Below are positions 7,177-37,758 of a stretch of 48,898 bases of DNA, one piece after another. The DNA lies in the NCBI GenBank assembly GCA_938003855.1, contig CALKXD010000110.1, positions 1 to 48,898 on the forward strand. Reading direction: 5' to 3'. Source of the stretch: an uncultured Granulosicoccaceae bacterium (GTDB lineage Bacteria; Pseudomonadota; Gammaproteobacteria; Granulosicoccales; Granulosicoccaceae). The notes under the pieces were generated by a model, which was given only the letters and a program-made list of their open reading frames with translations, was not told where the DNA came from and did not search any database. The number at the start of each line of letters is the position of its first letter. The stretch's first letter is position 1. The position numbers were made by a program, and so were the translations under genes.

Positions 7177-8541
7177 TTGTCTGAAAACGCTATCGCGCCT
7201 TGTTGTGGCCCCGGTTATGAGTCGCCGGCTCATGCTATGCAGGCTCCGCGTGAAAAGTTGCTCTACACCATTGCCATTTACGTGGGAACCGGTATCCAGA
7301 AGCCCGATTACCTGGCCACAGTTGATGCTGATCCGGACAGCGATACCTACTCGCAAGTAATAGCGCGCTGCGAGATGCCCGGTATCGGAGACGAGTTGCA
7401 CCACATGGGCTGGAATGCCTGCTCCTCCTGCCATGGCGATGGTGGCATGGAGCGCAAGTACCTGATTGTGCCGGGTGTTCGCAGTTCCAACCTGCACATT
7501 ATTGACTGCGGTACGGATCCACGTAACCCGACATTGCACCGGGTCGTCAGCGGTGACGAGATCAAGCAAAAGACCGATTTGTCCGCGCCGCACACGGTGC
7601 ATTGCCTCGGGTCCGATATCATTATCTCTATGCTGGGTGATGCAAAAGGCAATGCTCCCGGTGGCTTTCTGCATTTGAATAAAGATTTTGAAATCGTCGG
7701 ACGCTGGGAGAATGATCTCGGCGGTATGAAATTCAATTACGACTTCTGGTATCAGCCGCGTCATAACGTGATGGTCTCCAGCGAGTGGGCGGCACCAAAC
7801 ACGTTTATGCCCGGCTTTGATCTGGAAGAGGTGGGTCATCTGAAGTACGGTCGCGAAATTCATTTTTGGGACTTTGAAAAAAAGACCGTGGAAAACACCG
7901 TGTACCTCGGAGAAGACGGACTGGTACCACTGGAAGTTCGGTTTCACCACAACCCGGATTCCACACATGGCTTTGTCGGTGCAGCGATGTCGTCGAACAT
8001 CATTCACTGGTACAAAAAAGACCAGGAATGGATTGTTGAGAAAATAATTGATGTTGAAAACGAAAAGCATCCCGAGTGGCCTATACCGCTGCCCGGATTG
8101 ATCACCGTTATTCTGATATCAATGGATGATCGCTTTCTCTATTTTTGCAATTGGCTGCATGGTGATATACGCCAGTACGATATCTCCGACCCGCACAATC
8201 CTGTATTGACCGGACAGGTATGGATGGGCGGTATGTTGAAAAAAGCGCCCACGGTCAATGGCGTTGATATTGCCGGCGGGCCGCAAATGATTCAGCTGAG
8301 CCTCGATGGAAAACGCTTATACGTGACAACCTCGTTGTTCTCGACCTGGGATAACCAGTTTTATCCGGAGATTCGCCACAAGGGCGGTGTGATGCTGATG
8401 GTGGATTGCGATACCGATAGCGGTGGGATGGAAATCAACAAGGATTTTATCGTGAATTTTGGCAACGAACCCAATGGTCCTTCGCGATGCCACGAGACCC
8501 GTTACCCCGGCGGCGACTGCACATCCGATATCTGGCTTTAG
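7177..8541 (+). CDS. Selenium-binding protein SBP56 / methanethiol oxidase family
   Basis: About 454 aa, closely following the SBP56 pattern: CCGPGYESP near the N-terminus, DELHHMGWNACSSCHGD, PHTVHCL, YDFWYQPRHNVMVSSEW, PLEVRFHHNP, GGPQMIQLSLDGKRLYVT and the C-terminal GGDCTSDIWL. Bacterial members (MtoX) oxidise methanethiol to formaldehyde, sulfide and hydrogen peroxide using copper; the His-rich segments are the expected metal sites. I place the start at TTG 7177 because AGGAG at 7166-7170 sits six bases upstream; a TTG at 7129 lacks such a site. There is no signal peptide, whereas characterised MtoX is periplasmic, so the cellular location may differ. It heads a unit with a CoA-binding protein and a ferredoxin. 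Activity on methanethiol is inferred from the family. Confidence 0.88.
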   Translation: MSENAIAPCCGPGYESPAHAMQAPREKLLYTIAIYVGTGIQKPDYLATVDADPDSDTYSQVIARCEMPGIGDELHHMGWNACSSCHGDGGMERKYLIVPGVRSSNLHIIDCGTDPRNPTLHRVVSGDEIKQKTDLSAPHTVHCLGSDIIISMLGDAKGNAPGGFLHLNKDFEIVGRWENDLGGMKFNYDFWYQPRHNVMVSSEWAAPNTFMPGFDLEEVGHLKYGREIHFWDFEKKTVENTVYLGEDGLVPLEVRFHHNPDSTHGFVGAAMSSNIIHWYKKDQEWIVEKIIDVENEKHPEWPIPLPGLITVILISMDDRFLYFCNWLHGDIRQYDISDPHNPVLTGQVWMGGMLKKAPTVNGVDIAGGPQMIQLSLDGKRLYVTTSLFSTWDNQFYPEIRHKGGVMLMVDCDTDSGGMEINKDFIVNFGNEPNGPSRCHETRYPGGDCTSDIWL

Positions 8542-22852: not shown

Positions 22853-24376
22853 CTATCTGCTCTGGTTGATTGTCCAGGTATTAAAATTTACATCACCAGC
22901 GCCCCAGAAAATCTCGGTGCCGACAATGATGTTCGCCATACACCAGTCGTCCTGAATCTGATCAGAGTTACTGGCAGCACCGAATCGTTGCTTAACCTGA
23001 TGGGCGTTGTCTTTTGCCCAATCGACAAAGTCGTTCCAGTAGACAGTGCCGCTGAGTTGCGGGTTTTGTGCAACAAAGGCGACATAACGAGTATCAGAGC
23101 CTTTGGTGTATACCTTGTAGGCTTCACCGCGAATGTTCAGGTCAGCGACAAAGTCGCCAGGGCCCGCTGGCAGACGCTCGGCACCCGCATCAAGCCATAC
23201 CATTACTTCGTAGACGTGGTTGGATCCGCCGGAACGCTTGACGATGTCGGTGTTGCATTGACCGGTTTCGTCTTCGTAGAAGAATGATTCAATGGCAACG
23301 TTGCGCTCGCCCTGGATAGTAGAGCCATTCGGGAATCGGGCATTGTTAGAAGCATCAACAATTCGCTCTCCACCGTATTGCGGGCCGGTGTAGGCGTAGT
23401 CGATGGAGATGTTTGGCATCTCGCTCAGCTTAACGGGCAAGCCGGTTTCGTCCTTTGGTGCGCTGGTGCGGAATTCGTCTTTGACGCCGAATATCAGCTC
23501 CGGGTAAGAGCGTACATAGTAGTCGCCGGATGCCTGGCTGTTGCCGTTGATTCCGGTGCGGCCAGGGCCCCAGTCGTAGTTCCAGCCGATCTTCGCACCA
23601 TTGGTGTTTGTAGTGATGCACTGTGACCATTCGTAGCCCGGGAATGCACGCCAGGGACGCCAGGCATTGTTGTGCAGGATGAAGTCGCCCACGCGTGTGT
23701 CTGAGTAGTCATTGCGATCATCAAGAGTCGTGCAAATGCTCTGCTGTGCGACAACTGGCAGTGCTGATGTGCGGAATACGGTGCCGCCACTGTTGTCCGA
23801 GGTGAAATCGCCGGCATCCGTGTCGCGCTCACCAGTGGTGTCGTTGTCATTGCTGTTGTCACCGCCATCTGAACTGCTGCTGCCGGAATCGTCGCCGTTC
23901 TGGCCGCCATCGGAGGTGCTGCTGCCGGAGTCGTCGCCGTTCTGGCCGCCATCAGAGGTGCTGCTGCCGGAGTCGTCGCCGTTCTGGCCGCCGTCAGAGG
24001 TGCTGCTGCCGGAATCATCGGTGTTTTGGCCGCTATCAGAGCTGTCGCTTCCGGAGTCATCGGTGTTTTGGCCGCTATCAGAGCTGTCGCTTCCGGAGTC
24101 ATCGGTGTTCTGACCGTTGTCAGAGTTGCCACCGTCAGCGTCATCGTTGTTCTGTGTACTGTCATCGCCACTGGCATCATCGTTTGTGCTGTCGCCGTTG
24201 TCAGTCGTATCCGTACCGTTGTCACCACTGTCGGTGTCGCCACCCTGTGGAATAACCGGAGTACCGGTGTCCGTAACCCCGGTTTCTGTGCCGGTGTCCA
24301 TTGGCGTAACCAGGGAGTCACTGTCGCAAGCGCTAAGTGACATGATAATAAGACTGGCAAGTAAACTTCTTTGCAT
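22853..24376 (-). CDS. Lipoprotein with a GH12-like endoglucanase domain
   Basis: A 507-aa predicted lipoprotein. Signal peptide and lipobox are MQRSLLASLIIMSLSAC with the acylated Cys17. Residues 18 to about 205 form a low-complexity Asp/Ser/Gly/Asn/Gln linker. The C-terminal 290 residues fit glycoside hydrolase family 12: YVRSYPELIFG, NISIDYAYT, NHVYEVMVWLDAGAERLPAG with candidate nucleophile Glu390, and IIVGTEIFWGAG with candidate acid/base Glu488. It should cut beta-1,4-glucan or xyloglucan at the cell surface. The start ATG 24376 follows AGAGG, and an upstream in-frame Met at 24433 would spoil the lipoprotein signal. The family assignment comes from motif reading, not a search. Substrate uncertain. 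Confidence 0.75.
   Translation of the reverse strand: MQRSLLASLIIMSLSACDSDSLVTPMDTGTETGVTDTGTPVIPQGGDTDSGDNGTDTTDNGDSTNDDASGDDSTQNNDDADGGNSDNGQNTDDSGSDSSDSGQNTDDSGSDSSDSGQNTDDSGSSTSDGGQNGDDSGSSTSDGGQNGDDSGSSTSDGGQNGDDSGSSSSDGGDNSNDNDTTGERDTDAGDFTSDNSGGTVFRTSALPVVAQQSICTTLDDRNDYSDTRVGDFILHNNAWRPWRAFPGYEWSQCITTNTNGAKIGWNYDWGPGRTGINGNSQASGDYYVRSYPELIFGVKDEFRTSAPKDETGLPVKLSEMPNISIDYAYTGPQYGGERIVDASNNARFPNGSTIQGERNVAIESFFYEDETGQCNTDIVKRSGGSNHVYEVMVWLDAGAERLPAGPGDFVADLNIRGEAYKVYTKGSDTRYVAFVAQNPQLSGTVYWNDFVDWAKDNAHQVKQRFGAASNSDQIQDDWCMANIIVGTEIFWGAGDVNFNTWTINQSR
23862..24113 (-). repeat. Six 42-bp tandem repeats in the GH12 linker
   Basis: Six imperfect 42-base units, each coding a 14-residue block such as SSTSDGGQNGDDSG or SDSSDSGQNTDDSG. 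Three neighbouring units are nearly identical, which points to recent duplication. The repeat lies in the linker between lipid anchor and enzyme domain, so changes in unit number would alter linker length in multiples of 14 residues without shifting frame. Confidence 0.9.
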
Positions 24377-24712: not shown

Positions 24713-25186
24713 TTATCGGGTTAATGTGACTGTTGAGTTTATCGGAGTGTTGTTGAGAACAAGCTCACTGTGGTCGTTCGCGCTTAAAGTGACACGCATT
24801 GTGTGAGTGCCGGCAGGGACTTTGTTGATGTGATACCAGTCGCCGTACAGCCGTGCCAGCTTTTTCCCGTTGAGGTAGAGGTGCGCATGCGCTTCGTTAT
24901 CCAGAGCTTCAGCAACTACGTTTTGCGAGGTTAAGCGGAAAGTTTCTGTGGAGATCTGTACGTTTCAGCCGGCCAATGGGTCCTGGCTCGCCTTGAGTTC
25001 TACGGTTGGAATGGTGGCGAAACCGGAGACCTCTTGCGATGCATGGTGATGTGCATCACCGAGGTCCATTTTATGTTCAACGTTGTGGTTTTCGTTCGCT
25101 GTGTAGTGCTCCATAGGATTAGAGCAATTCGACATTTGAATAAGTAGTAGAAGCGCTGGTAGTGCTTTGCCGAAGGAAATAGCCAT
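24713..25186 (-). pseudogene. Small exported protein interrupted by an in-frame UGA
   Basis: Reading from ATG 25186 (AGGA upstream), the frame gives a short lipoprotein-like signal (FGKALPALLLLIQMSNCSN), a His-rich part and PTVELKASQDPLAG, then TGA at 24965-24967. The same frame continues without interruption from NVQISTETFRLTS, through HAHLYLNGKKLARLYG and VPAGTHTMRVTLSANDHSE, to a TAA at 24713-24715. The downstream part is the conserved half of the family as I remember it, where the interrupted position is usually Trp in an xGWN context. One base change, TGG to TGA, explains it. It is therefore a recent nonsense pseudogene, a sequencing error or, much less likely, a recoded gene. Confidence 0.75.
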
Positions 25187-36438: not shown

Positions 36439-36808
36439 ATTTGACAGCATTAATGTTATCCCGTTTGTTGATATCATGCTGGTATTACTGGCGATTGTAT
36501 TGACGACGGCCACTTTCGTCAGTAATAGCCAGCTTGACATTACCCTGCCGGTGGCTGATACCGAAGCCAGTGAGGCTCCTGTCGACTCTATAGAGATCGC
36601 CATTGATCGGGAAAATAACCGGTACGTTGACGGGCGTGCGACCGATGCACAGGCGTTAAAGGTTCAGTTGTCTATGCTCTCGGCTGACACGCGGGTAGTA
36701 CTGCGTATAGATGAGTCAGTTGAATTTCTTCAATTTGTCTCTCTGATTGACGTGCTGAAAACGCATTCGCTGGATAACGTTTCTATAGAGACACGGATGA
36801 CACCGTGA
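36431..36808 (+). CDS. exbD: ExbD/TolR-family subunit
   Basis: A 125-aa protein with one N-terminal membrane helix. The conserved proton-path aspartate is in [20 protein letters not shown] (Asp13), followed by the periplasmic domain ([17 protein letters not shown]...). It partners with ExbB. It starts at ATG 36431 inside the exbB reading frame end, and its stop overlaps the GTG start of tonB by four bases. Confidence 0.92.
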
Positions 36809-37758
36809 GGGGGACTGTCACGGGAGTGCTGGTTTCAGCGGTGCTGCATCTGGCGTTGGTAGCGGTTCTGCTCGGCGGCAATAGTCCTGAGTTAACGCAA
36901 CTGCCGTCGGTTGAAGTCATTGAATTGAACCTGTCACTGTTCGACGTTGAGCAGGCTCCACCGGACCATGCGCAGAAAGATGCCGATGTCACCGTGGAAC
37001 CACCGGATGCGGCGATAGAGCCCCTGTCGGAAATACCACTGGATAACCCACCGGAAACACCGGTAGCTCCCGCTGCAGTAATTGCGACAAACGATCTGAC
37101 TGAACCCGAACCCGAACCCGAACCCGAACCCGAACCCGAACCCGAGCCTGAACCCGAGCCTGAGCCTGAACCTGAACCTGAACCTGAACCTGAACCTGAA
37201 CCTGATCCTGAACCTGAACCTGAACCTGAACCGCTGGTATCGGCTGAGGGTGACCCGCGTGCAGTACCGGAGCTGCCCTCCATGCCTCTAGAACAGGAGG
37301 TACTGGAAGAAGTCGAAGGTGCCCATGTTGATGAGGTGACCTTTGTCGAGTCCGTAGTGGAGGCGCACATAGAGCCGGTTAAGCTGACTGAGCACGCGTC
37401 AGTGCCGGTTATAAAGCGCGATCAGGTCGCGCCGGCTGAGGTGTCGGCAGCGGCGTCAACCACCGCAGATTCAGTGGAAGAGCGCAATTATTCAGGTAAG
37501 GTGCGAGCGGCGGTAGTGGCTCAGCGTGTGTATCCGCGTCAGGCCCGTCGTCGTCAAATTACCGGAGAGGTCCGGGTCGGCTTTACCTTGCAGAACAATG
37601 GCCGGCTGATGACAGCAGACATTGTGCGGTCGTCAGGCGTGGCGGTATTGGATGATGCAGCGCTGGCTGCGGTAAGCCGGGTGCGGCAATTTGACGCTTT
37701 TCCGGCGACTGTCACCAGAACCGAATGGGACTTCGAGGTCGTGCTGGTGTTCCGGTGA
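36805..37758 (+). CDS. tonB: TonB energy transducer with an expanded Glu-Pro linker
   Basis: A 317-aa TonB. The N-terminal helix [17 protein letters not shown] contains the conserved Ser-x3-His pair (Ser11, His15). A rigid linker of 22 Glu/Asp-Pro dipeptides comes from a hexanucleotide repeat. The C-terminal domain ([37 protein letters not shown]) contacts the receptor TonB box. It uses a GTG start at 36805 overlapping the exbD stop. Position directly after its receptor and ExbBD indicates a dedicated system. Confidence 0.93.
37102..37233 (+). repeat. 132-bp GAACCY hexanucleotide repeat within tonB
   Basis: 22 consecutive hexamers of the type GAACCC, GAGCCT or GAACCT encode Glu-Pro dipeptides, with one GATCCT (Asp-Pro). 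The first block is pure GAACCC and the later block is GAACCT, showing two separate expansions. Length changes stay in frame if they are in multiples of six, and would vary the reach of TonB across the periplasm. Confidence 0.95.

Follow-up and report, generated by a model that had tools for sequence, protein, structure and literature searches.

A small gene for an exported, histidine-rich protein of an uncultured Granulosicoccaceae bacterium is split by an in-frame TGA at its 74th codon. The reading we favor, at a probability of roughly two in three, is that a nonsense substitution at a conserved aromatic codon truncated this accessory exported protein, leaving a nonsense allele or a young pseudogene. 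The feature is real but ordinary: either an accessory gene cut short by a nonsense mutation or a one-base error in the sequence. The window (the whole 48,898-nucleotide stretch of DNA that was analyzed) carries the gene on its minus strand, with the following parts.

24713..25186, minus strand: the whole broken frame, 158 codons with both stops counted, for a small His-rich exported protein
24967..24965, minus strand: in-frame TGA, codon 74, at a site where most of 45 homologues have Trp
24968..25186, minus strand: part before the TGA, 73 codons, with hydrophobic N-terminal segment, His-rich linker and first domain strand
24716..24964, minus strand: part after the TGA, 83 codons, with the conserved family core (HAH, Y114, H139)
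24926..24964, minus strand: the 39 bases directly after the TGA, MFE 0, without a SECIS-like hairpin

Results

The Interrupted Frame

The frame opens with an ATG at 25186 and closes with a TAA at 24715..24713, and between the two there is neither a frameshift nor any in-frame stop besides the TGA. A preliminary description made from the sequence had placed the gene at 24713-25186, with the same frame running on past the TGA and no other lesion; these coordinates are exact and the frame behaves as described, to which we add the strand, which had not been given. The signal sequence of the first part is a by-eye call on the hydrophobic N-terminal segment.

The 83 codons after the TGA have a coding score of 10.9 bits, a value attained by 3.4% of wrong-frame segments (mean -16.0, sd 13.1), while 27% of real coding segments (mean 15.1, sd 8.5) lie at or under it. 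Judged from homology across the TGA, invariant columns on both sides and this coding-like codon use, the second half is part of the interrupted gene. A separately translated second half was considered as a candidate and rejected: no ATG, GTG or TTG occurs past the TGA before codon 130, so that the second half has no usual start codon of its own.

Homologues Aligned Across the Site

In tblastn searches with X at the stop, homologues align straight across the TGA in the same frame, with E values of 1e-27 to 2e-23 for seven of them and 5e-13 for L014. The relative L007 is 47-48% identical over residues 57-155 and L009, a Loktanella plasmid protein, is 41% identical. An alignment of the window sequence with eight homologues (A1; whole-protein identity 26-43%) has invariant columns on either side of the TGA, and the family profile matches the window gene with E 1.7e-59, a profile that includes this gene's own sequence. 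By conserved-domain similarity the gene belongs to the exported His-rich beta-domain family defined by A1; the complete open frame of that family is broken by the TGA at codon 74, and the gene is a truncated member.

The residue at the TGA site was read in 45 homologues. Eight are those of A1, and ten come from a phylum-wide search that hit 11 of 398 genomes, the window's own genome among them. The other 27 were added by searching a single alphaproteobacterial family, represented by 198 genomes; 50 of these gave 55 matches in all, and the site was read in the 30 that came with a locus, three of which were already counted. Tryptophan stands at the site in 31 homologues, followed by Tyr (7), Phe, Leu and Val (2 each) and Met (1), and Cys in none; these counts are not fully independent, as L009, L012 and L178 are mutually close and so are L182 and L184. 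One further locus, L006 in the congener G012, does not span the site. The preliminary description had proposed a single TGG-to-TGA change in a protein with a conserved C-terminal half; the downstream part is indeed present in homologues, both by tblastn and in A1, and Trp in 31 of 45 fits a Trp-to-stop substitution.

None of the ten foreign matches of the phylum search contains a stop, and one of the 55 alphaproteobacterial matches does, a TAA (G477:C14:14016-14369). A search of genome contigs found one relative, L007, and viral contigs held none.

UGA as a Stop, as Tryptophan or as Selenocysteine

Stop usage was counted in 965,487 bases, roughly 14% of the genome, made up of the window and 60 further stretches. 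The 684 open frames of at least 200 codons end in TGA 270 times, in TAA 214 times and in TAG 200 times, making TGA the commonest stop, and exbD, bufA and other genes of the window also end in it. Since TGA is a working stop, a variant code in which UGA means Trp throughout is effectively out, as had been argued from the neighboring genes. In agreement, the only tRNA with a UCA anticodon among the scanned loci was tRNA-Sec, in a recovered tRNA set that is incomplete and in which no tRNA-Trp was found. A tRNA-Trp with a 4-bp anticodon stem reads UGA according to the excerpted text of PMC13092985; tRNA-Trp pattern matches in the congeners G012, G010 and G007 have, by eye, a 5-bp stem.

A scan of the same 0.97 Mb for stops between coding-like halves of one frame flagged 9 of 3182 stops, of which the window's is the sole convincing split gene, the other eight being judged same-frame neighbor genes or unclear. 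The scan missed a further interrupted gene, the PrdB-like one described next, whose codons past the UGA scored close to 0; its sensitivity is low, and to call the window's stop an isolated event is therefore a weak statement.

The genome does encode selenocysteine machinery. On contig C130 lie selA (590 bits) and selB (381.8 bits, whole protein), and on C107 a tRNA-Sec (75.8 bits, also found by ARAGORN). Between selA and selB (locus L049, genome G000, C130 6359-11251) stands a PrdB-like gene on the minus strand with an in-frame TGA at 8476. Its similarity to PrdB (E 5e-16) is under the family cut-off, and its frame continues through the TGA into a U-x-x-C motif; the excerpted text of PMC2398784 names PrdB, a proline reductase, among abundant marine selenoprotein families and gives UxxC as its motif. 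This gene is very probably a selenoprotein of the organism, and selA, selB, tRNA-Sec and the UGA-containing PrdB-like gene together indicate that the organism very probably makes selenoproteins. The preliminary description had taken the normal TGA stops nearby as an argument against selenocysteine and had suggested a search for selA and selB; both are present, along with tRNA-Sec, so that this argument no longer holds.

With the PrdB-like gene the window gene shares an in-frame UGA and the selA/selB/tRNA-Sec background, and a genome that holds this machinery and a genuine-looking PrdB-type UGA gene speaks for selenocysteine at the window's UGA. Against it stand the absence of Cys at the site in all 45 homologues, the absence of any Cys downstream of the TGA in the window frame, and the lack of a SECIS-like hairpin, which had been noted by eye and is borne out by folding. 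The 39 bases past the TGA have an MFE of 0, and all 200 shuffles are equally good; the 42 bases after the PrdB-like UGA reach -10.7 kcal/mol, an illustrative control only, which does no better than its own shuffled versions (z -0.60). Rfam gave no match for the sequence after the TGA. Of the marks of a bacterial selenoprotein, the Sec machinery is thus found in the genome, whereas the window gene lacks Cys homologues, a U-x-x-C or similar motif and a post-UGA hairpin. With neither a Cys homologue nor a hairpin after the TGA, insertion of selenocysteine there is very unlikely, little short of excluded. Our literature search on selenocysteine in Granulosicoccus found nothing.

Genomic Setting

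The gene has one copy in the genome. Among 13 congeners no clear homologue was found, only one weak match of 29% identity in G012 at another place; a closer homologue (38%) occurs elsewhere in the taxonomic family, in G061. G012 is also the closest congener examined, as measured by the neighboring GST protein (84% identity), and its upstream lipoprotein-like gene is 44% identical to the counterpart in the window. These two genes face apart across about 450 bases in G012 as against 1033 in the window, and the orthologous gap of G012 has no similarity to the interrupted gene. Because the gene is absent from this orthologous place, it is either an insertion in this genome or a deletion in G012, and it is probably dispensable in the genus. 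A promoter and terminator scan found nothing.

Two neighbors carry conspicuous repeats. The lipoprotein-like protein at 22853-24376 (minus strand) contains a long Ser/Asp/Gly/Asn-rich repeat (SDGGQNGDDSGSS units) and has no Pfam match; its relative in G012 (L129), at the same place, has fewer repeat units. A long Glu-Pro repeat (EPEPEP...) marks the TonB-like protein at 36805-37758 (plus strand), whose gene adjoins exbB/exbD-like and TonB-dependent receptor-like genes (names by eye).

Discussion

Nonsense Mutation, Sequence Error or Readthrough

We propose that a single substitution would have turned codon 74, Trp in most relatives, into TGA. Normal termination there would yield an exported stub of 73 residues with the signal segment, the His-rich linker and one domain strand; the conserved beta domain would not be produced, and its loss would be tolerated if, as seems probable, the gene is dispensable. 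The base is presumably real in the organism and the stub without function. As in a pseudogene, the TGA stands at a site where 45 homologues have none and removes the conserved domain. In favor of the nonsense reading count the frame and homology continuing through the TGA, Trp in 31 of 45 homologues, the absence of an early restart and of a hairpin, the place of TGA as the commonest stop of long frames, and the gap without the gene in G012; against it count the absence of a second lesion, the 15 of 19 conserved columns that are kept, the mixed relative rates and L199, an intact homologue with just as many departures as the window gene. In view of the 83 codons free of a second lesion, the coding-like codon use and the 15 columns kept, any decay of the gene must be young. 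Nonsense alleles and young pseudogenes, as treated in the excerpted text of PMC7918605, resemble the window gene, in which a single in-frame stop, at a site where Trp prevails among relatives, is the sole flaw in a frame that still looks coding. In-frame stops are described there as widespread in bacterial genes, often short-lived and with dN/dS below 1; unlike those surveyed, the window gene is known from one strain.

Conserved columns, defined as those with the same residue in at least 85% of the other sequences, offer a view of selection after the stop. Of the 19 such columns after the TGA the window gene differs at 4, and of the 3 before it at none; position 99 is Ala in the window gene and Gly in 45 of 45 others. 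Among similarly identical homologues most lose 0 to 3 conserved columns, L199 lying at 4 of 19 and the most divergent at up to 6. Relative to L008, changes unique to the window after the TGA are higher with 7 of 11 outgroups and lower with 4. These comparisons give a weak hint that selection may have been relaxed after the TGA.

It is this hint, through the four lost conserved residues, that speaks against an error of sequencing, consensus or assembly, or a minor strain variant in the consensus, behind which the true gene would be intact. Such an error would leave one altered base and a frame free of other damage, as seen here, the assembly is a draft of 312 contigs, and a miscalled base fits most of the evidence for a nonsense mutation equally well. 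That the window's stop is the sole convincing split among the nine flagged points the same way, although a rare true mutation would be expected to be just as isolated. We regard an error as improbable, yet a contender to be taken seriously.

A further candidate is low-level readthrough, tolerated or useful, in which tRNA-Trp would misread the UGA so that small amounts of the complete protein are produced. The base after the TGA is A, and UGA followed by A is described as prone to misreading by tRNA-Trp in Escherichia coli in the excerpted text of PMC5289835; in this leaky context, small traces of the complete protein, carrying Trp at codon 74, may arise. Trp is, moreover, the residue that the family prefers at the site, and the widespread in-frame stops with dN/dS below 1 would suit such a process. 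The extent of UGA readthrough varies between hosts, from about 12% in E. coli to 0.08% in P. putida and 0.04% in P. aeruginosa (excerpted text of PMC9481147). On the other side, the TGA is known from one strain only, and an interrupted frame is no family trait, the window's being the only stop among the 11 matches of the phylum search and the single one among the 55 elsewhere being a TAA; the tRNA-Trp of congeners looks ordinary as well. Readthrough of this kind is distinctly unlikely, and recoding beyond the basal level has no support. Still more doubtful, and at best a slim prospect, is that UGA-A is a selected leaky stop giving mostly a metal-binding 73-residue stub and, by Trp readthrough, a minor amount of the full domain; if true, a single gene would have two products, their proportions fixed by how efficiently translation terminates.

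The Family and Its Possible Role

Sequence searches of Pfam, NCBIfam and the PDB placed the window protein in no family above cut-off; of the nine A1 sequences, one matches the copper chaperone family PCu(A)C and another, weakly, CusF. Structure prediction gave a poor model (mean pLDDT 58, from two sequences), whose best PDB matches are weak and Fn3/Ig-like (TM 0.32 for the first); no conclusion here draws on it. Plasmid proteins of Roseobacteraceae, Paracoccaceae and Stappiaceae, annotated as "hypothetical protein", share G-[WYF]-N, HAH-x-Y and H139 with the window protein. The window copy differs in being broken by the TGA, and Gly precedes HAH in 45 of 45 others where the window has Ala.

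Six of 21 plasmid records were examined, and in three of these six loci the homologue comes after CbtB and CbtA genes; the window gene, in contrast, lies between the Ser/Asp-rich lipoprotein-like and GST-family genes. In L010, L011 and L013 the homologue follows CbtB and CbtA directly, with DUF1636 genes near; these genes may form a cluster for handling metals, in which the exported His-rich partner is so far unnamed. In L007 the homologue follows a gene for a DoxX-family membrane protein. These gene neighborhoods, taken with the linker rich in His and with the HAH conserved across the family, suggest that the intact family may act in metal handling outside the cytoplasm; the papers listed for CbtA, CbtB and DUF1636 showed nothing on the His-rich beta-domain family.

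The case carries a caution for annotation, in that a lone in-frame TGA, even in a genome that very probably decodes selenocysteine, should be read as such only when a homologue with Cys and a SECIS support it. For the family, the nonsense mutation that we favor would mean that this lineage can do without an exported, possibly metal-linked protein, one that occurs in 50 of the 198 genomes searched in a single alphaproteobacterial family.
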